A stretch of DNA of 33,609 nt, taken from assembly GCA_024278345.1 (NCBI GenBank), contig JAJRTK010000543.1:1-33609 (forward strand). Direction: 5' to 3'. The position numbers were made by a program, and so were the translations under genes. This stretch comes from a bacterium. GTDB lineage: Bacteria; CSSED10-310; JAJRTK01. Shown piece after piece: positions 1 to 30,450 of this stretch (position 1 is the stretch's first letter; every line of letters begins with the position of its first letter). Under the pieces are notes generated by a model. It was given only the letters and a program-made list of their open reading frames with translations, made no database searches and was not told where the DNA came from.

Positions 1-539
1 GGAGCTTCTTCCGGTTCCGGATCTTCTTGGGGCGCCTGCGCCTGGCCGTCGAGGTCAGGTGGAGGCCGGAACCGCGGAGTGGTGGTTTCCGCGGTTTCCT
101 TGGCCTGGGCTTCGGGAGGCTCACTCTCCTTGGTCGGGATGCGCGGCGATGTGGGTTCCTGGGCTTCTTCCGGTTCCGGGGCTTCTTGGGGCGCCTGCGC
201 CTGGCCGTCGAGGTCAGGTGGAGGCCGGAACCGCGGAGTGGTGGTTTCCGGGGTTTCCGTGGCCCGGGCTGGAGCTGGTGTTGTCTCTCGGTCAGCTAAC
301 GTGGCGGCATCTTCAAGGCAGCGAGAACGAGATTCGGGTGTCCATTTTTTTCTCGCGACCGATGAGGGGATTCCCAGCCGCTGCCGCCATCGCCCCAGTG
401 ATCTGGGACCGAGGCGAATTCCCTGAGAGAGAAGGATCGTGCTGAGTTTTCTGTCAGCCCACGGGTAGTCCGGATGTTCGTTGCTAATGAGCTGAACCAA
501 GGCACGAGCAGTCTCTTTCGATCTCGCTTGCGAACTCAT
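1..539 (-). CDS. Orphan sigma-54 (RpoN) DNA-binding-domain protein with Pro/Glu/Thr-rich repeats, partial
   Basis: The reading frame is open from an ATG at 539 (read leftwards) to the left edge of the window, so at least 179 residues are present and the C-terminus is missing. Residues 1-60 resemble the C-terminal domain of sigma-54: a helical stretch with ETARALVQLISNEHPDYPWA, then KLSTILLSQGI, then RSLGRWRQRLGIPSS, which aligns with the RpoN box (typically ARRTVAKYRE followed by LGIPSS). No room exists for the core-binding or activator-interacting regions of sigma-54. The rest is low complexity, with a 53-residue repeat containing TTTPRFRPPPDLDGQAQAPQ and PEPEEA, seen once fully and once in part. 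GGAG five bases upstream supports the ATG at 539. An in-frame ATG at 590 would add 17 residues resembling the sequence preceding this domain in RpoN, but has no ribosome site. A stop at 636-638 closes the frame. DNA binding is inferred from family resemblance. Confidence 0.6.
   Translation of the reverse strand, partial: MSSQARSKETARALVQLISNEHPDYPWADRKLSTILLSQGIRLGPRSLGRWRQRLGIPSSVARKKWTPESRSRCLEDAATLADRETTPAPARATETPETTTPRFRPPPDLDGQAQAPQEAPEPEEAQEPTSPRIPTKESEPPEAQAKETAETTTPRFRPPPDLDGQAQAPQEDPEPEEA
5..271 (-). repeat. Tandem direct repeat, 159-bp period, inside the orphan sigma-54-box gene
   Basis: Two copies of a near-identical stretch begin at 5 and 164, giving a period of 159 bases (53 codons, in frame). 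The match covers about 105 bases with very few differences, and the remaining 50 or so bases of each period differ. The array meets the window edge, so more copies may follow. Translated on the minus strand it encodes the Pro/Glu/Thr-rich segment with TTTPRFRPPPDLDGQ. Confidence 0.85.
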
Positions 540-615
540 CACATCTCCGCGGTATCTCGGGTCGAGGTACGTCTTGAGGGCTTTGAGCATGGTTCCAGGG
601 CGATGAAAGGCAAGT

Positions 616-692
616 GTCGGCGGACGGATGGGTACTCACGCCGTAGGCGTGGGTCATGCCGCCGCGAGCGGACCGCAACTTTAAGAGAACAA
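616..692 (+). repeat. Dispersed repeat copy 1 (hairpin form)
   Basis: This is one of eight related intergenic elements in the window. It contains the left block CGGCGGACGG, an insert of about 28 bases with the hairpin CACGCC-GTA-GGCGTG (636-650), and the right block GCGAGCGGACCGCAAC (663-678) followed by an A-rich tail. The closest relatives are at 11288-11384 (opposite strand) and 19511-19596. It lies just upstream of the orphan sigma-54-box gene. Confidence 0.8.
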
Positions 693-754
693 GGCCACCG
701 AGAATGTTCATGCCCTTGAAGCGTCCCACCATCTTATCTCATGCGCCGACAGTG

Positions 755-839
755 GTCTCGCCACCCATGGCAGAGCAACCACCACGGGTCATGTGGTGGG
801 GGTTGGGATGTCTCGCCAGCGATCTGGCGGAGCAACCCC
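755..839. other. Structured region: duplicated small hairpin plus competing stems
   Basis: A 26-28 base unit beginning GTCTCGCCA and ending GAGCAACC occurs at 755-780 and again at 810-837. Each unit has a small stem, and the second is perfect: CGCCAG (814-819) pairs with CTGGCG (824-829). Between them CCACCAC (779-785) pairs with GTGGTGG (793-799). GGGGTTG (799-805) can pair with CAACCCC (833-839) to enclose the second unit, while its GGTTG part can pair instead with CAACC (776-780), so two folds compete. It matches no riboswitch class I recognise. Either strand could carry the functional RNA. Confidence 0.5.
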
Positions 840-1107
840 TTTCTCATGAATCTTTATACTGAAATGAGGGTTCATCTTCGAATGCGGGAAGAGCGTGGAT
901 TGCAGTAAGCCAATCATACCATGTACACTTCAATTTGATGAGAGACGCGCTGGAAGGCTTGAACCCGGAGTTCTCATGACGTCTCTACCGTGGCGGTCGA
1001 TCCAACGTTTCCACCGGCGTCCTTTGGCTGGCGGCGAACCAGGGGCTGACATGCGGGAAGGACTTGTCCATTTTCTAGGCCAGTGGCTGCATCCGGCGGT
1101 TTGCCTG

Positions 1108-1170
1108 GGGAGGGGCGCGAGCGGCTGCGAGCGACCCGACCGGAACGCAACAGAGAAGAAACTCCCTCGG
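1108..1170 (+). repeat. Dispersed repeat copy 2 (short form)
   Basis: This is a short, diverged copy without the hairpin insert. It ends in CGACCCGACCGGAACGCAAC followed by AGAGAAGAAA. It is closest to copy 8 (32664-32731, reverse strand), with which it shares the CGACCCGACCGGAA block. Confidence 0.6.
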
Positions 1171-1405
1171 ACCAATCACTAGCAAGAACCGCCAGAGGCG
1201 CCAGCGCGTGGCCGACTGGATGGACGAGGCCATGCGGGAATCATCGGCGGACAGATCTTTCTTGGTTCTTGGGGGCGTAAGTCTCAGGCAGCTTTACCAG
1301 AGCCGTGGTGAGAAATGCAGACTTGTGGGATAGGCTGTGGGCCAAGATTCATTGGAGTGAACTTGAGTTTTCGACCACGGTTGTAACGAAGATCGGAGGA
1401 ATGGT

Positions 1406-2779
1406 TTGGTGTATGAGACTGGGAAGATCGGCTTTGAGCGCGGATGGCTGTGCGGGATGATCGTTGCCGTTGCTTGTTGGGGACAGGGCTTCGCTCATGC
1501 CGGTGGTTCTTACATTCCCGACATCGGGGTGCGAGCCTTGGGTCGTGCGGGCGCCGTGGTTGTCGGGGCCGATGATCTCATGGCACTTCACTACAATCCC
1601 GCGGCTTTGACCAGGCTTCGAAAAACCAGCTTTTTCGTGGATGTAGCTGCGGTCAGTGCTCCCGTAAAATTCCAGCGTGCCCCCGGGATCTTTCGGCCCG
1701 ATGGTGAAGCCATCGATCCAGACAGGATCTTCCCTGAAGTGGAGAACCAGGCATCGCGCCGCATCATTCCCTCGTTGCTCATGGGAAGTTCCCTGGAACA
1801 ATTTGGCTGCGAGGAGTGTGCGGTGGCCTTTGGCCTCTATGGCCCTTACAACGCTGCGTTTGAGTACCCTGCCGATGGTCCGCAGCGATACGCCATCGTC
1901 AAATCGGGTTCCACCCAGGTCATGTTGACCGCCGCCTTTGCCCGGCCCATCACCTCTTGGCTCAAGATTGGGCTCAGCGGGTCTGCCGTGTACGTGGGGC
2001 TCATCCAAGACCTGATTTTTCAGGCAAGCAAGAATGGCATCGAAGACCCCAGCGAGGATTTGATTCTTTCGGCGAATCTTGGAGATTGGACATGGGCTTA
2101 TGGCGGTGGTCTCTTGATCCAGCCGGTGGACTGGATCGAGTTTGGTCTTTCGGCGCAGTCGCGGATTAGTTTCCACGTGACGGGCAATCTGACGGCCACG
2201 GCGCCGCAGCTAGGGAACATCTCCATTGATCTTCCGGCCGAAACGGAGGGGGCCCTGCCAGCCATCTACCGGGCCGGCGTTCTTCTCCGTCCCTTCAGAG
2301 GGCTGGAGCTGGAAGCCGATATCGTGCGCTATACCTGGTCCAACTTCGGCGAGTTCGTCATCGAGTTCCAGGGGGAGCTGGGAGATACGCTCGACCCCGT
2401 GGTTCTGGTCAACAATTATCAAGATGTTTGGAATCCCAGATTTGGCGTCGAATACAAAGGGTTGCGGCGACTGAGGTTACGGGCGGGAATGCAGTTCGAG
2501 GAAGCAGCGGTGCCTCTGGAGACCGTGAGTGTTTCCGGAGTCAGTGGCGCCAAGACCATTGTCACCGCGGGGTTGACCTATGATTTCGGCTTTTGGGATG
2601 TCGATTTTGCGTACGCAAACATCGCCGTAGGCAAGCGAGAAACCGATGTTTCACGGGCGCAGATGATCAACCTTATGGGGCCCTCCACCGTCATTGGGAA
2701 CGGCACCTATGAGATGGCTGCCAACATCATTGCCGTAGGCATCCATTTCTATCCGGGCCGAGATCGCGACGACCTCTAA
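1406..2779 (+). CDS. FadL/OMPP1/TodX-type outer-membrane protein
   Basis: The 457-residue protein is predicted to be an outer-membrane beta-barrel of the OMPP1/FadL/TodX type, which carry hydrophobic compounds across the outer membrane. The N-terminus has a hydrophobic segment (about residues 14-27) ending QGFAHA, a likely signal peptide. It is followed by the family hallmark: a Gly-rich VRALGRAGAVVVGADDLMAL stretch and HYNPAALTRL (compare NPAGL in FadL). The rest alternates strands and polar loops. The start is a TTG five bases after GGAGGA; an ATG at 1401 is out of frame and a GTG at 1409 is possible. The stop overlaps that of the convergent amidohydrolase gene by four bases. The substrate cannot be told from sequence. 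Confidence 0.85.
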   Translation: MVYETGKIGFERGWLCGMIVAVACWGQGFAHAGGSYIPDIGVRALGRAGAVVVGADDLMALHYNPAALTRLRKTSFFVDVAAVSAPVKFQRAPGIFRPDGEAIDPDRIFPEVENQASRRIIPSLLMGSSLEQFGCEECAVAFGLYGPYNAAFEYPADGPQRYAIVKSGSTQVMLTAAFARPITSWLKIGLSGSAVYVGLIQDLIFQASKNGIEDPSEDLILSANLGDWTWAYGGGLLIQPVDWIEFGLSAQSRISFHVTGNLTATAPQLGNISIDLPAETEGALPAIYRAGVLLRPFRGLELEADIVRYTWSNFGEFVIEFQGELGDTLDPVVLVNNYQDVWNPRFGVEYKGLRRLRLRAGMQFEEAAVPLETVSVSGVSGAKTIVTAGLTYDFGFWDVDFAYANIAVGKRETDVSRAQMINLMGPSTVIGNGTYEMAANIIAVGIHFYPGRDRDDL

Positions 2780-3786
2780 TCAAGCCCGAAGAGGCGGATC
2801 GCATTTTCAGAAAAGACGGCCCTGCGAAGCTCTTCGTCGTTTTCCGATGCCATGAGAATCTTCGCGATTCCGGGCGCCTGATGGTAGAAGGGCCAATCCG
2901 TGCCGAACAGCAAGCGCTCGGGAGAGGCCGAGGCCAAGATTTTCCGGATGTTTGGGAGCCCCTGGCACGAGAGTTCCAGATAGACGTTGGGAAACTCCAT
3001 GGCGAGCTCCAGCGCTTCCTCCATCTGCAGCGCCCCGGAGTGCCCAAGGATGAAGGTCGTCTCCGGACATTTTTCGATGGGCTCGCGGTAGCGCTTGACC
3101 TGGCTGAGCTTGCGGCCCATGCGGGTCTCGATGTCCACGGGGCCACAGTGCCACAAAACAGGGAGTGACCGCTTGCCGCAAAGGCGGTACAGCTTTTGGG
3201 CTCGTGGATGCTCGGGTCCCACGAGCTGCACCGCCGGATGCACCTTGATTCCTTGGGCGCCCAGGGCGATCTGCCGTTCCAGGCGCTCCTCGAGGTTTCG
3301 CGAGAAGGGGTGGATGGACCCGAAGCCGATGAACTGGGGGTCATTCTTCGCTGCCTGGAGGTGGTTCCGCGCATTGTTCGACAAAACGGGGAGTTCGATG
3401 GGAAGAATGCAGCAGTGGGAGACTCCCAGCTCCTCCATCTCTCGGGCGAGGTTGCCCAGCGTGTGGCTTCCTCTCATGCCTCCGGCCGTCAAACTGCCGA
3501 GAGTCAGGTCCCGCTTGAGATTCGAAAGATCCTCTTCCTTGAGATTCCGGTTCATGTAAACGTTGAGATCGAGGGCTCTTTCCAAGGGTAGATAGTGTTC
3601 CGTCTTTTCGGTGCGCCGCTTCAGGTCAACGCGGTTGGGAAATAGAAACGACAAGGCCAAATGCGTGTGAACGTCGATAATTGGACCCACCGACTCGTCA
3701 CACATTCGGAGGCGGCCAGCGGAATCCTGCTCGAACCAGGGCAGTTGTGCCAGCTCGTAGGTATTGGGAAACTGGGTTGGATGCAT
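2776..3786 (-). CDS. Amidohydrolase-2-family metal-dependent hydrolase
   Basis: The 336-residue protein is a predicted cytoplasmic TIM-barrel hydrolase or decarboxylase of the amidohydrolase-2 family (the ACMS decarboxylase/PF04909 type). Visible metal-site motifs are the HxH in IIDVHTHLAL (His40 and His42), a lysine/histidine pair in GIKVHPAVQL, LWHCGP, ILGHSG, and the late aspartate in LLFGTDWPF near residue 300. Order and spacing are normal and it looks full length. The start is an ATG with GAGG seven bases upstream. It ends in a four-base overlap with the convergent barrel-protein gene. The substrate is unknown. It is the last gene of the minus-strand series that begins at 11044, with a 143-base gap to the exporter gene upstream. 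Confidence 0.85.
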   Translation of the reverse strand: MHPTQFPNTYELAQLPWFEQDSAGRLRMCDESVGPIIDVHTHLALSFLFPNRVDLKRRTEKTEHYLPLERALDLNVYMNRNLKEEDLSNLKRDLTLGSLTAGGMRGSHTLGNLAREMEELGVSHCCILPIELPVLSNNARNHLQAAKNDPQFIGFGSIHPFSRNLEERLERQIALGAQGIKVHPAVQLVGPEHPRAQKLYRLCGKRSLPVLWHCGPVDIETRMGRKLSQVKRYREPIEKCPETTFILGHSGALQMEEALELAMEFPNVYLELSCQGLPNIRKILASASPERLLFGTDWPFYHQAPGIAKILMASENDEELRRAVFSENAIRLFGLD

Positions 3787-6143: not shown

Positions 6144-6582
6144 GGTTTTCTCCCTGCTCTGGGTCGATGGCAACGCTCTCTCCCGTTCCATTACAGGATG
6201 TTTCCTATTCCGTGCAAATGGCCTCGCCTATCGTCCCGGCCAACCAGTGAATTTCGGGTCCAGCAGTGCCAGGGCTGGTGATGACCTTGCGGTCATTATT
6301 TTTGCGGCCCGCGGTTTTTGTCGGGTGGCCGAGACGACGAACGACGCCCCTTCTCTCATGGCTTTGGGGGAAGAGGAACCGTCAGTGGCGGGCGGTGCTC
6401 CAGCCCTAGGGCAATGGAGCGAAGGTGGCGCCAATGGCGAGGAGCGGGCGCCGGATGGCGACCGATGTGAGCGGAACGCAACACGTAGAAAACAAAGGGT
6501 TTGCCGATAACTCCGCCCTAAAAGAAGAGCACGACCCAGTCGCGAGGTTTCCCGAGGATGGTCCGCGGTGGGAGCTTCGGGA
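6144..6582. other. Intergenic stretch with dispersed repeat
   Basis: About 440 bases separate the phosphatidyltransferase start from the end of the metalloprotease-barrel gene. The main recognisable content is repeat copy 4 (6391-6538). A plus-strand open frame from 6425 runs through the repeat into the antisense of the next gene and looks like a shadow. The first half (6144-6390) shows nothing I can name. Confidence 0.6.
6391..6538 (+). repeat. Dispersed repeat copy 4 (long form, pair with copy 7)
   Basis: This 148-base element matches 21561-21709 across nearly its whole length. Shared blocks include GGTGCTCCAGCCC/GGTGTTGCTCCAGCCC, GCGGGCGCCGG, GATGTGAGCGGAACGCAACA and GAAAACAAAGGGTTT. The GAGCGGAACGCAAC core ties it to the other copies. 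There is no 28-base hairpin insert. It is non-coding here, unlike copy 7. Confidence 0.85.
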
Positions 6583-11044: not shown

Positions 11045-11418
11045 CAACTTCTCCTTCCACTCCCACCTTCAGAGGTTTTCCCACGTCACTCCGAAACTAG
11101 GGAATCACACAAATCAACCACAAGCCCAATCAAATCACATCACCTTCATCCGCGGCAATCCAAAACCATGAACCTCTTGTCTCCCAGTCTCCAACTCCAA
11201 TTCGCGTTTGAATCGAGGCCCCGAGTCCAGTACGATCAGCCAAGGCTTCAGAAACTCAGTCGTTTGCCCTCTGCGAGGAGTGAATCGATGAAAACGCTTT
11301 TCTTTCCCTGGGTTGCGTTCCGCTCGCGTCGGCATGACCCACGCCTACGGCGTGAGTACCCCTCCGTCCGCCGCCACTCGCCTTCTTTCTCGTCAAAAAA
11401 GATCGGATTGGACTCCCC
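11045..11418. other. Intergenic stretch upstream of the DASS gene
   Basis: This stretch separates the minus-strand DASS start from the small plus-strand primase-domain gene. Repeat copy 5 occupies 11288-11384. The part 11056-11287 should contain the promoter of the DASS series, but I see no clear -35/-10 pair. No other gene is supported. Confidence 0.55.
11288..11384 (-). repeat. Dispersed repeat copy 5 (hairpin form)
   Basis: Read on the minus strand this is the fullest hairpin-form copy: GGCGAGTGGCGGCGGACGG, then GGGGTACTCACGCCGTAGG and the rest of the hairpin insert, then GCGAGCGGAACGCAACCCAG with an A/G-rich tail. It is nearly identical over about 80 bases to copy 6 at 19511-19596 on the opposite strand. 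It lies immediately upstream of the orphan primase-domain gene at 11419. Confidence 0.88.
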
Positions 11419-19305: not shown

Positions 19306-19697
19306 GGAGTAGAGTCTCCTCAGCTAGAGTGTGATAGGATCTTCATCTGAAAGGCCGCTCCCCGTGGACTTGAACCTTCAACCCGGAGAAATGTTCTGGC
19401 AAAGAACGGCAAAGAATGAGAAACTATCCTCTCTTTTCCAGCGGGAAGTGACGACGTGAAATGCCGGTGGCTTCATGCTATCTGGAGAGGATTGGGTTTC
19501 TGGGCGCTGGAGGGCGAGTGGCGGCGGACGGAGGGGTACTCACGCCGTAGGCGTGGGTCATGCCGACGCGAGCGGAAGGCAACCCAAAGAAAAATAGTTG
19601 TCGGAGGCTTCCGGATCGTTGGCGGGTGGAAAGGCTGAAATGTCGGGGATGTCCAGATCCGTTATCATCGGGAATCATCCACCGGTAGAGGGAAGAG
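19306..19697. other. Divergent promoter region, copper ATPase / AI-2E transporter
   Basis: This region of about 390 bases lies between divergent starts. It contains repeat copy 6 (19511-19596) and a short inverted repeat TTGAA-CC-TTCAA (19370-19381) some 65 bases upstream of the ATPase ATG, a possible operator. GGCAAAGAA occurs twice close together around 19400-19415. No -35/-10 pair can be assigned with confidence and no small gene is supported. Confidence 0.5.
19511..19596 (+). repeat. Dispersed repeat copy 6 (hairpin form)
   Basis: This is a hairpin-form copy: AGGGCGAGTGGCGGCGGACG, then GAGGGGTACTCACGCC-GTA and its complement GGCGTGGGT, then GACGCGAGCGGAAGGCAACC and CAAAGAAAAA. It is almost identical to copy 5 (11288-11384, opposite strand). 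It lies about 100 bases upstream of the AI-2E transporter gene. Confidence 0.88.
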
Positions 19698-21731
19698 ATG
19701 AAGCGCTCTGACGAAACGAGGTTTCGATTGCCCTTCGGTGTTTCTCTGGAGAAACTGCTCATTTGGGCTCTCTTTGCCGCCGTCGTTTACTCCATACGCC
19801 AGTTCTTCTCTATTGTCTTTATGACGTTCATCATGAGTTACCTGGCGGGCCGTGTGGTTGGAGGTACCACCCGGTTTTTGGGCCGGTCGGCGGAGCATTG
19901 GATTCGGCGGCCCATCGTCTTCGTAGTCTATCTGGGGATTCTGGCCTTGGGATACCTTGCGGGCCAGGGAGTCTTGCCACGAGCCTTGGATCAGGGGCGA
20001 TGGCTCCTGGAAACGGTGCAAAAGATCGATCTCGAGGCCATTCGGGAAGATATCCTTGCCAAGACACTGGGGCGAATCGAGTTTACGCGCTTCAAGTTGA
20101 GCAAGGATTATGCCGCTGAATTCGACCGTTTCATCCGGGAGAAGTACAATCTTCTCACCTACCAGGAATCCCTTGAACAAGCCCTGGAGATTCGGGCGAC
20201 GTTTCGGCGTGAGCTGGCTGCCAAGGAGGGCGCCAATGCTCTTCGAGAATTCCAAACCGATCGGCCCAAGGAGTTTCGGGATCTCTATGTCAGGTGGTTG
20301 GAAAAAAACCGAGTCTCGGTGGAGGTCGAGCAACACCCCGACGTCTGGCGGAGATTCGCCGGCGTCTTCGAAGAGTCTTGGCGCCTCATCCACCGGGACG
20401 AAGAGTTCGAGAAGCAGCGATTGACGCCCGAATATATCGAACGCCGGGATGCGGCGACCCGCAGGCTTATCGCGGAAGACCTTGAATCAAAGGGAAAGTT
20501 TAAGGAAGAGTTCGAGTCAGGGCTTCTGGCCGATCTGGGCGGCCAGCGACTCAATGAGTTTTCCCCCGAGGAGCTCGAAGAGCGGTTCCAGCGTTTCTAC
20601 AAAAGGGAAGCTCCCCTTCGCTGGGCCGGGTATCCCTACAGTTACGAAAAGCTCGTGATCCTTCAGTCGGTTGCCGACGAGAACGAGTTCAAGGACAAGC
20701 TGACGGAAGAAGCTGCCGGGGAACAGACGGCCGAGGAAAAGTTCGCGCAGTACATGGAGCGGCGGTTGGCTCGGGATCACCCTTGGAACGATATGTTGGG
20801 CAACACGTCGGAGATCTTTGACAAGAACATGCCCACCATCGCCGCTTGGGTGACGACGGCCTTGAACAACGTCATCGCCTTTGGCTTCGATGCCCTTCTG
20901 TCTCTTATGTTCTCCTTCATGATCGTCTGGGAAGTGCCCCAGATCCGCCGTGGTCTTTCCCGAGTCGCCGGAACGCGGGCGGAGCCGTTATTCAACGAGA
21001 TCGCACCTGGCATCTATCGTCTTGGCCTGGTCATCGGTCGTGCGCTCTCCGCGCAGCTTCTCATCGCCTCTCTTAACGCTGCATTCGCCTTCACGCTCAT
21101 CAGTTTCCTTGGATTGCCTTCCAGAGTTTTCCTCACGTTGATGGTGCTTTTCCTGAGCCTGGTTCCCTATGTTGGGATCGTCATTGCAGGCGTCCCGATT
21201 TGCCTCGTTGCCCTCCAGCACGGAGGCACTGAGCTGGGGTTCTACGCCATGGTTGCCATGTTTTTCATCCACGAATTGGAGGCTTGGATTCTGAGCCCCA
21301 TGATCCTCGGAGAGTTCCTCCAATTAAATCCCATCGTTGTGATTTTCGTGCTTTTTGTAGCGCAGCAGCTTTCGGGTATCTGGGGGCTGCTTTTGGGCGT
21401 GCCCATCGCGGTCTTTTTCATCAACGACGTGCTGCTGAAGCCTGTTCATACTTCTGTGGAAGCCGAATCTGGGACTGCTCCACCGGACACGGGTCCTCTG
21501 GAGAAGCCCCGGGAATCGTGTGGCGCCAGGGAGACTGAAAGCGGAGAACGGGAGAATCTCGGTGTTGCTCCAGCCCAAGGGCAATGGATGACGAAGGCTG
21601 CGATAATGGCGAGCAGCGGGCGCCGGCTGGCGGTCGATGTGAGCGGAACGCAACACGAAGAAAACAAAGGGTTTTCTGGTAACTTCGACCTAAACGAAGA
21701 GGACGACCAGAATCTCAAGTCCAAGGAATAA
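19698..21731 (+). CDS. AI-2E family transporter with large extramembrane insertion and repeat-derived tail
   Basis: The 677-residue protein belongs to the AI-2E/PerM family, whose members include autoinducer-2 exporters and Na+/H+ antiporters. Two N-terminal helices (about 17-40 and 70-95) precede a charged stretch of roughly 270 residues (100-370) rich in Glu, Arg and Lys, predicted helical. The family core then follows: FSFMIVWEVPQIRRGLSRV, a Gly/Ala-rich helix, LSLVPYVGIVIAGVP, and HELEAWILSPMILGEFLQLN. Usual members have about 350 residues with only a 100-residue loop at that position. The last 57 residues or so (from about 621) are encoded by dispersed repeat copy 7 and look unrelated to the family. 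AGGGAAGAG supports the ATG at 19698. The transported substrate is unknown. Confidence 0.82.
   Translation: MKRSDETRFRLPFGVSLEKLLIWALFAAVVYSIRQFFSIVFMTFIMSYLAGRVVGGTTRFLGRSAEHWIRRPIVFVVYLGILALGYLAGQGVLPRALDQGRWLLETVQKIDLEAIREDILAKTLGRIEFTRFKLSKDYAAEFDRFIREKYNLLTYQESLEQALEIRATFRRELAAKEGANALREFQTDRPKEFRDLYVRWLEKNRVSVEVEQHPDVWRRFAGVFEESWRLIHRDEEFEKQRLTPEYIERRDAATRRLIAEDLESKGKFKEEFESGLLADLGGQRLNEFSPEELEERFQRFYKREAPLRWAGYPYSYEKLVILQSVADENEFKDKLTEEAAGEQTAEEKFAQYMERRLARDHPWNDMLGNTSEIFDKNMPTIAAWVTTALNNVIAFGFDALLSLMFSFMIVWEVPQIRRGLSRVAGTRAEPLFNEIAPGIYRLGLVIGRALSAQLLIASLNAAFAFTLISFLGLPSRVFLTLMVLFLSLVPYVGIVIAGVPICLVALQHGGTELGFYAMVAMFFIHELEAWILSPMILGEFLQLNPIVVIFVLFVAQQLSGIWGLLLGVPIAVFFINDVLLKPVHTSVEAESGTAPPDTGPLEKPRESCGARETESGERENLGVAPAQGQWMTKAAIMASSGRRLAVDVSGTQHEENKGFSGNFDLNEEDDQNLKSKE
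21561..21709 (+). repeat. Dispersed repeat copy 7 (long form) forming the transporter C-terminus
   Basis: This 149-base element matches copy 4 (6391-6538) along its length. Here it lies inside the reading frame of the AI-2E transporter and encodes residues about 621-671, including SGRRLAVDVSGTQHEENKGF. The same frame in copy 4 would give SGRRMATDVSGTQHVENKGF, so the element stays open in that frame although copy 4 is probably untranslated. Confidence 0.85.
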
Positions 21732-27497: not shown

Positions 27498-28208
27498 TTA
27501 CCCGCTGCTATTCGAGGCCGGCGATGATGGCTTGGTGACCGATAAGAGTTCCGGCGCGAAAGCCCGGGTAGAGAAGAGGCCCGGTCCCCGGAAATGCTTC
27601 CGCCGGTGCGTAGAAGGCCCGTTCCGCTTCCTGGCCACCACCACGTACCGCCACGGGCTGTGCCATACGCCGGAGAAGGGATAGCAGGTCACCAGCGTCA
27701 GCCTCGTGTCCAACGACGGTTCGAGAACGGAGTCGTCTCCCATGGAAACCACCCGTAGCTCTTCTACGACGTAGTAGACCAGGCCGCGTCGGGTGCTGAC
27801 CTGCAGTTCGTCTCCAGCTTCCAGGTCCTCCAGGAAGGAGAACCAGGTATCGCGGTGCCCGGCAAGCCCACAGTTGCCCTGCATGCCCGGAGCCGCCGTT
27901 CCATCGATGTGTCCTGGGCCGAAGGCCATGGACTCGCCCGAAGCCCCGCTGAGCACGATGCGTCGGATCCCCAGGCGAGGAACCTCCAGGCTGGCAATGG
28001 GATGCATGTCGGCCCAGCTCCACGGGGGATGGGATCGACCATCGGCGAGGGAAGCGGCAAAGGCGCGCTCGATGAGCAGGCCGGCCAACCGGGCCTTCAG
28101 TTCCAGCCAGACCTGCCCGCCCAGTAACGTGACTCCCGATACCAACATCAGCACCGAGAGCGCTTGCGCGACCCTGATCGTTGTCGTGGCACGCTTCTTT
28201 CCATCCAT
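27498..28208 (-). CDS. Class GN (Gram-negative) sortase
   Basis: The 236-residue transpeptidase would be held in the inner membrane by an N-terminal helix (about 11-33). Sortase catalytic residues are all present: His118 in GLAGHRDT, Cys175 in LTLVTCYPF, Arg187 in SPWRYVVVA. The motifs PPWSWADMHPIASL, VLSGASGESMAFGPGH and NCGLAGHRDT are those of the marine-proteobacterial or class GN sortases. A tail of about 42 residues after the last beta strand (RNGPSTHRRKHF onward) is longer than usual, and its Arg/Ser/Pro composition looks like read-through into former non-coding DNA. GGAGG before the ATG supports the start. It follows its probable substrate gene after 112 bases. Confidence 0.92.
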   Translation of the reverse strand: MDGKKRATTTIRVAQALSVLMLVSGVTLLGGQVWLELKARLAGLLIERAFAASLADGRSHPPWSWADMHPIASLEVPRLGIRRIVLSGASGESMAFGPGHIDGTAAPGMQGNCGLAGHRDTWFSFLEDLEAGDELQVSTRRGLVYYVVEELRVVSMGDDSVLEPSLDTRLTLVTCYPFSGVWHSPWRYVVVARKRNGPSTHRRKHFRGPGLFSTRAFAPELLSVTKPSSPASNSSG

Positions 28209-28320
28209 CTCCTTGCCTCCTGGCGTTCAAATTCCCGGTCGGTTCGGCCGGGCCGGGGTTCCGGGCAACGCAGCCGGATCCCGGGCCTCAGCCTCCTTGA
28301 CCTTGGAACGACAACGGAAC

Positions 28321-30450
28321 CTACCCGTGCGAGAGTCTGCGTGAGAGGCCGGCAAGAGCCAGCCCCAGCAGGGAAAGGAGGAGGCCGATCCGAACGTACA
28401 GCGGTCCCGTGGTTCCTCCCCTTGGCAAGCCGGGTCCCTGGAGCCGGGATCCGGTCGGAAGGGTGTTGGAAACCTGCCGCGAAACGGCTGGCCCCTCGGC
28501 GGTGGCAACGTTCTCCACCGCCACCAGGCTCGTGTATTTCGTCACCAGGTTGAACTCCGTGGCGACCTCGATGACCGCGGCCCGGACCTCGGCCCCGTCG
28601 GCTCCCTCGTGGAGGCTGTTCATCAGGCTTTCGATCTTGGCCCGGCCCCACCGTGTGCCGATTCCCGACTGTTTTGGCCCGTCTGGGGACACCTCCAGGC
28701 GCAGGGAAACCTCACCCTGTTTCGTCCGCCCCCTTAGCACTACCCGTCCCGACAAGGGTTTGACGGGGAGCTTGAGGGAGAGTACCAGGGGTTCGCCGGC
28801 GTAGAGATCCGGCAGCCGGGCAGGGTAGATCTCTTCCGGCTCGATTCCCTCCCAGTCCAGTTCCAGGTTGGTCATGACCGGCCGGCGCAGCCGGGCATAG
28901 AATCGGTCGATCTGGTTTTCGGCTCCTTCGGTGGTGGCGACGAATTCAGACAGCCCTCGGCCGAACTTGGCCATCTTTCGCATCAAGTACCTGTTGGGGG
29001 CGTTGCCGATGCCAATGGTGTGGAGCCGCACTGGTCCCAGCTTCCGGATCACGGTGTCGAAAATCCGGCTTTCGTTGTCCACCGCCCCGTCCGTGAGAAA
29101 GATGATCCGTTGCACGTTGTCCCGGTTCCCGTTCCGGGTCATCGCCAGGCCGCGCATGAGAGCCGGAAGAATTCTGGTGCCGCCCCCGGCTTCCAGGAGC
29201 TGCACCCAGGCGCGGGCCTGGTTCAGGGCCTCCTCGGTCGCCGGTAGGAACCTGTCGGCGAACGCATCGGTATTTTCGTTGAACTGAAGAAGGTTGAACC
29301 GGTCCTCGGGACCGAGCCGGTCCAGGGCGGCCAGAAGCGCTTGCCGGGCCTGGCGGATGGAAGGGCCTCCCATGGAGCCCGAGACATCGACAATGAAGAC
29401 CGTTTCGGTGGGCAAACCGGTCGGTGGCCCGCCCTCGGGGGATGGCGGCACCATCATCAGCAGGGCGTAGCGGCTTTCTCCCAGCTTTTCGGTGAAGATC
29501 GCCGCGGCCGGTTCTTGGCCGTACTTGGGTCTCCACTGTAGGATGAAGTCGTGATCGGCCGTGATTGCGCCGGAGAGGGGCTCGACTCTCCACACCTTCC
29601 CGTGGGAGAAGGCGCGGATCGGGTGAGATGGACTCTCCACACCCAGGAGATCGAGGCCGGCATCGATCCTGGCATCGATGACGGCAAGGGGACCCGGCCC
29701 GTCGGTGAACCGGCCGAACGGGGCGGAACTCCGTCCGGCGTCGGACTCGCCGCCGGAAACGCCGGCATCTTCGGAGCCCGCGTCGCCCGTCGCGAAGCGG
29801 GGCGTGAAGGTCAGCGGGAAGCTGTAGCGGAAGAGGCCATCTCGGAATTCCACTTCGTCCAACATCTCCATGGTGACCTGGATCGACTCCCCGGGATTGA
29901 TGTTGGCCACCGCGGTGGTGAAGAGGTTGGGCCGCTCCTGATCGAGCAGTGCGGCCTTATGCCCCAGTCGTTTTGCCCGCCGGTAGGTCTTCCTGGCTTC
30001 TCCCCGCTCCTTCAGCCGGGAAACGATGCGCCGCTCGCCGATCCACATCTCCATGTGATGGACGGCGGCCCGGTCCGGAAGAGGAAAGACGTAGATCGCT
30101 TCAATGACCTTTCCGGTGGGATTGGCAAAAAGCTGGGTCACGGTCGCGTGGACCAGGATCCCGGTCACGTCCAGTCGCACGTCGGTCTGGGCGAGGGGAA
30201 GCGGGACCAGGCCATCATCGGTTCTCCACAAGAGATCGCCTGCTCCCACGTCGCGCAGGTCCCGGATTGGCCGCGGCTCCCAACGTTCCAGAAGCTCAGC
30301 CGGAACCTCGCGGCGCTTGTCCATGGCAGCCTCGACACCTCCCGTTTTCCAGCAGAAGCCGAAAAAAAGGAGGATCCAGACGCCGAACGCCCTCCATGGC
30401 TTCCGGTATGAACAGGCTTTCCGTCTAGGGGCAAGGAAAGTTTCTCTCAT
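28321..30450 (-). CDS. VIT/VWA-domain sortase-target protein (marine proteobacterial sortase target type)
   Basis: The 709-residue exported protein has a membrane segment at the N-terminus (about 22-38), a VIT (inter-alpha-trypsin-inhibitor-like) domain about 75-200 (VTQLFANPTGKVIEAIYVFP, EARKTYRRAKRLGHKAALLD, TTAVANINPGESIQV) and a von Willebrand A domain from about 350 with an intact metal site, DVSGSMG near 353. The C-terminus has LPTGSR near 661 followed by a hydrophobic helix (YVRIGLLLSLLGLALAGL) and Arg-Arg, a sortase-type sorting signal. This family is normally encoded beside a class GN sortase, as here. The protein is probably attached or released at the cell surface by that sortase. 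AAGGA precedes the ATG. Confidence 0.9.
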   Translation of the reverse strand: MRETFLAPRRKACSYRKPWRAFGVWILLFFGFCWKTGGVEAAMDKRREVPAELLERWEPRPIRDLRDVGAGDLLWRTDDGLVPLPLAQTDVRLDVTGILVHATVTQLFANPTGKVIEAIYVFPLPDRAAVHHMEMWIGERRIVSRLKERGEARKTYRRAKRLGHKAALLDQERPNLFTTAVANINPGESIQVTMEMLDEVEFRDGLFRYSFPLTFTPRFATGDAGSEDAGVSGGESDAGRSSAPFGRFTDGPGPLAVIDARIDAGLDLLGVESPSHPIRAFSHGKVWRVEPLSGAITADHDFILQWRPKYGQEPAAAIFTEKLGESRYALLMMVPPSPEGGPPTGLPTETVFIVDVSGSMGGPSIRQARQALLAALDRLGPEDRFNLLQFNENTDAFADRFLPATEEALNQARAWVQLLEAGGGTRILPALMRGLAMTRNGNRDNVQRIIFLTDGAVDNESRIFDTVIRKLGPVRLHTIGIGNAPNRYLMRKMAKFGRGLSEFVATTEGAENQIDRFYARLRRPVMTNLELDWEGIEPEEIYPARLPDLYAGEPLVLSLKLPVKPLSGRVVLRGRTKQGEVSLRLEVSPDGPKQSGIGTRWGRAKIESLMNSLHEGADGAEVRAAVIEVATEFNLVTKYTSLVAVENVATAEGPAVSRQVSNTLPTGSRLQGPGLPRGGTTGPLYVRIGLLLSLLGLALAGLSRRLSHG

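Follow-up and report, generated by a model that had tools for sequence, protein, structure and literature searches.

We asked whether the open reading frame starting at position 539 on the reverse strand of this DNA encodes a natural RpoN-type DNA-binding domain outside a sigma factor, and what such a protein might do. The stretch analyzed (the window, 33,609 nucleotides) comes from a bacterial genome of 6.06 Mb in 550 contigs, with a completeness of 87.9%. In the genomes searched, the RpoN domain is almost always the C-terminal part of sigma-54, and no other separate N-terminal module was found. A natural stand-alone RpoN domain whose recognition helix is altered would be a direct test of three points: whether the domain functions outside a sigma factor, what part R455 plays in −24 specificity, and whether a counterpart of the engineered RpoN* roadblock is in use in cells.

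The frame extends from 539 to 3 on the reverse strand (179 open codons) and runs past the left edge of the window. An earlier note, made from the DNA letters, had described it as opening with a domain that resembles the C-terminal part of sigma-54, and database searches bore this out. Residues 5–65 matched positions 99–160 of PF04552 (Sigma54_DBD) with a score of 35.7 bits (E = 8.7e-9), above the curated cut-off of 22.8 bits, and no other Pfam family was matched by the part of the protein within the window. Every specific NCBIfam match was an RpoN model, and the top PDB sequence matches were all RpoN C-terminal domains (2mt3, 1.3e-7; 2o8k, 3.6e-6). A transposase helix-turn-helix (HTH) was rejected as the identity of the domain, as the matches to IS3 (E = 0.15) and to a PHROG transposase (E = 0.019) were far weaker than those to RpoN. 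The features of the locus are listed in Table 1.

Table 1 Features of the frame-539 gene in the window.
Feature	Position	Strand	Basis
ATG start (539–537), with GGAG (548–545) five bases upstream and GTG (542–540) directly before the ATG	537..548	−	Sequence reading; predicted start
RpoN (sigma-54 region III C-terminal) DNA-binding domain, residues 5–65	345..527	−	PF04552, PDB matches, fold match 2o8k
RpoN-box equivalent GPRSLGRWRQ, residues 44–53	381..410	−	Alignment, box survey
Pro/Glu/Thr/Ala-rich repeat with a 159-nt (53-aa) period, present twice in the window and broken off at the contig end	1..272	−	Repeat search
Contig end; gene probably continues as G000:C11:2-2533 (+), 843 codons	1..1	−	Shared repeat, open frame

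The polymerase-binding regions of sigma-54 had been reported as absent, and across positions 1–3000 of the window only RpoN positions 419–477 were indeed represented at a significant E-value. Read from its sequence, the predicted protein is opened by an RpoN-type DNA-binding domain and is otherwise unrelated to RpoN. It shares with RpoN/sigma-54 (PF04552; TIGR02395 rpoN_sigma) the three helices of the C-terminal domain, the IPSSxxRK tail, and the equivalents of R456 and R462. In contrast to RpoN, it carries the domain at its N-terminus, has Pro and Trp at the positions of R455 and Y461, and is fused to repeats and, probably, to the acidic region and TPR-like domain encoded beyond the contig end. 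Region I, the core-binding domain, and the −12 HTH, which define a sigma-54 factor, are missing.

The fold was checked by structure prediction, as the earlier note had proposed. The model built with an RpoN-containing alignment (pLDDT 78) showed the three-helix RpoN fold, with helices at residues 3–20, 29–38, and 45–55. It superposed on the RpoN/−24 DNA structure 2o8k with an rmsd of 1.5 Å over 56 columns (TMt 0.77), and its best 25 fold matches were all sigma-54 or its RpoN domain, although the RpoN rows inside the alignment bias the model toward this fold. The model without an alignment was poor (pLDDT 60) and too weak to judge the fold. The predicted recognition helix (45–55) begins with Pro45; because proline is tolerated at this position of a helix, the RpoN fold is compatible with it.

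The RpoN box was located where the earlier note had placed it, but its sequence departs from the RpoN box ARRTVAKYRE at eight of the ten positions, and the only identities are the equivalents of R456 and R462. R455 is replaced by Pro, K460 by Arg, and Y461 by Trp. The R455/R456 pair was present in all but one of about 50 surveyed boxes, the exception being a divergent second copy (L121), and the Pro at position 455 sets the frame-539 domain apart from the canonical box with both arginines. In closed-complex structures, R455 and R456 of sigma-54 read −28CTGGC−24 (PMC9770992), and the R456A change abolishes the DNA binding of sigma-54 (PMC9017345). We infer that the frame-539 domain is likely a DNA-binding domain of altered specificity.

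The 53-residue low-complexity repeat described earlier was recovered directly after the domain. The left edge of the window is base 1 of contig C491, which breaks within this repeat. Beyond this edge, where the earlier note had suggested looking for the full protein, the repeat offers a probable continuation. The repeat DNA was found elsewhere in the assembly only at the very start of contig C11 (96% identity), where two further units follow in the same reading frame (G000:C11:2-324). They lie in the C11 frame entered in Table 1, which contains the repeats, a low-complexity region of acidic character, and a TPR-like C-terminus. The ends of C491 and C11 overlap inexactly (95.6% over 159 nt), and one or more repeat units are therefore probably missing between the contigs. 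Joined via the common in-frame repeat, the two frames probably form one protein, with a minimum length of 1,022 residues given the gap in the repeat between the contigs. The order of domain and repeat given in the earlier note was correct, but the putative protein is larger than described there.

After the repeats, the C11 part has a stretch of about 500 residues with a high content of Glu, Asp, Pro, and Ser, and the net charge is about −118 over residues 101–850 of the joined protein (750 residues). The C-terminus is weakly suggestive of TPR repeats, with a best score of 19.1 bits (TPR_16/ANAPC3, E = 0.0016–0.0018) that lies under the Pfam cut-offs. No relatives specific to the TPR region were found in the phylum or in plasmids. 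The acidic region of this frame (L042 2–2533) also contains three tandem motifs of about 16 residues with the pattern (D/E)ELLxxxLxxG (SGELLANLLRG, ADELLIEMVEG, and SEELLAQALRV), which may be short interaction helices.

We searched the remainder of the genome for RpoN. As the earlier note had proposed checking, an intact full-length rpoN was found on a separate contig (G000:C72), as a 491-codon frame with a canonical ARRTVAKYREELRIPSS. The genome also has 26 strong PF00158 matches, representing sigma-54 activators. The frame-539 domain shares about 32% identity with the genome's own RpoN. No further RpoN pieces were detected in the six frames of window positions 1–3000 by tblastn with 29 RpoN proteins and by profile search; a decayed 3′ fragment of rpoN, one of the outcomes that would have undone the earlier note, was ruled out on this basis. 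Contamination is argued against because the interspersed repeats of C491 are also present on the rpoN contig C72 and a second element is common to C491 and C11.

The same layout was absent from seven other genomes of the phylum. It was also absent from 386 genomes in a direct protein search, whose only matches were consistent with RpoN C-termini, and among the PF04552 matches listed for these genomes, where weak matches in one-match genomes may be missed. The listed matches, together with a recheck of 14 genomes that had two of them, comprised complete copies of RpoN, RpoN split between contigs, a small number of weak partial matches, and one protein combining an RpoN half with a GIY-YIG-like domain. 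The latter (L047, 1773–3008, reverse strand, genome G028) has 411 residues, with the C-terminal half of RpoN followed by the GIY-YIG-like domain recognized by eye. Single-protein scans of genome contigs and viral contigs gave no homologue, and a search for the pattern P-R-[ST]-x-x-R-W-R..L.IP across 84,980 species and the viral contigs, followed by translation and profile search, gave no RpoN domain in the right context. The degenerate pattern had 27 genome matches against about 23 expected from its information content. In plasmids and phages the layout was likewise absent, with matches that were RpoN C-termini or weak and at chance level. The viral RpoN matches were all full-length or clipped by a contig end. 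About 22 viral-labelled contigs (L135–L156, IMG/VR), some of them contig-clipped, encode a related RpoN, short at about 430 residues, whose loop ahead of the box is reduced; it may be phage-borne or mis-binned sigma-54.

The earlier note knew of no family with this layout, and these searches agree with it. No description of a natural stand-alone RpoN domain was found in the open-licence literature, which is weak evidence of absence. The layout is unusual and real, and is so far represented by one fragmented genome. The closest comparisons are an engineered and an altered RpoN. RpoN*, the C-terminal 60 residues of A. aeolicus RpoN, was engineered as a roadblock that blocks or modulates sigma-54 promoters (PMC5626770). 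It is a stand-alone RpoN domain of equal size, but unlike the frame-539 protein it is artificial, has a canonical box, and lacks a fusion partner. The atypical meningococcal RpoN has an RpoN box without the −12 HTH and is a natural product (PMC6755734). It is an altered rpoN product that retains other RpoN regions, whereas the frame-539 protein has the RpoN domain only and coexists with full-length rpoN.

With modest confidence, we favor an intact, lineage-specific gene for a large DNA-tethered adaptor or regulator that reuses the RpoN domain with altered specificity and is not a sigma factor. Its basic helix-turn-helix would dock at a specific DNA site via Arg46, the equivalent of R456, and with Pro45 in place of R455 its specificity may be shifted or relaxed, away from that for the canonical −24 TGGCAC. 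Through the acidic arm, long and flexible, the TPR-like domain would keep a partner protein close to the DNA site. By these three steps, the protein would act as a site-specific adaptor. The PF04552 and PDB matches, the alignment-based fold, the separate rpoN, the sigma-54-rich genome, and the lack of rpoN remnants suggest this reading. It is also suggested by the occurrence of the repeat at only two genomic sites, both contig ends and in frame, and by the retention of the arginine whose change abolishes DNA binding in sigma-54. The below-cut-off TPR scores, the inferred contig join, the flat GC by codon position in codons 1–72, and the RpoN-biased alignment stand against it. Since there is no orthologue, conservation provides no argument for function. 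More tentatively, and with appreciable doubt, the promoter-reading tip of sigma-54 may have been split off as the DNA-binding module of a new regulator class, equipped with a long acidic arm and a protein-binding domain; such a natural factor would be directed to sites of the sigma-54 type, or compete there, and yet be no sigma factor.

A natural −24 competitor, as the earlier note had considered, would bind TGGCAC-like −24 elements and block or modulate sigma-54 promoters like RpoN*, with the TPR arm adding control. The stand-alone size matching RpoN* (PMC5626770), the retained R456 and R462 in GPRSLGRWRQ, and the abundance of sigma-54 activators are in its favor. However, one of the two −28CTGGC−24 readers (PMC9770992) is lost with R455, the RR pair is otherwise departed from only by L121 among the surveyed boxes, and Y461 is Trp; the Y48A change attenuates RpoN* (PMC5626770), and Y48 may be the equivalent of Y461. 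No enrichment of −24/−12-like sites was seen in the window. Plain −24 competition is therefore doubtful given the change of R455 to Pro, and the claim as stated is unsupported. We regard such competition as unlikely, and as less likely than the DNA-tethered adaptor.

In scaffolds of the FimV/HubP type, a long low-complexity region of acidic character goes together with C-terminal TPRs, LysM, and a membrane segment. The joined protein recalls them in its very long acidic region and TPR-like C-terminus, and may be a nucleoid- or position-anchoring scaffold with weak or non-specific DNA binding that would chiefly serve, through its TPRs and linker, in assembly at some cellular location. We consider this improbable, as an N-terminal RpoN-type domain replaces LysM and the membrane segment (inspection by eye showed no membrane segment, and Pfam reported no LysM), and the conserved R456 and the fold argue for specific DNA contacts. 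Least probable is a functionless relic or assembly chimera, a decayed or misjoined rpoN-like fragment, to which the repeat-caused break at the contig end, the occurrence in one genome only, and a codon-position GC that is flat over the first 72 codons (with unusually high GC2) would point, against the gene's own ATG with GGAG, the single frame open through the repeats on both contigs, the failure to find further RpoN pieces in any of the six frames over 3 kb, the distance from the genome's own RpoN, and the interspersed repeats common to these contigs.

The coaE neighborhood was not conserved across the phylum. A palindromic interspersed element of about 100 nt occurs in the window at 591–689, just upstream of the gene, and at 11303–11385 and 19495–19593. 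It had at least 42 matches in the genome, with 40 of 290 candidates scored. The second interspersed element (6420–6536 and 21592–21708 in the window; 16528–16623 on C11) overlaps the ends of open reading frames and gives some predicted proteins a similar tail. At 27498–30450, a VIT/VWA protein identified by Pfam adjoins a frame that appears sortase-like by eye (27498–28208), and the two may be a sortase-target pair.
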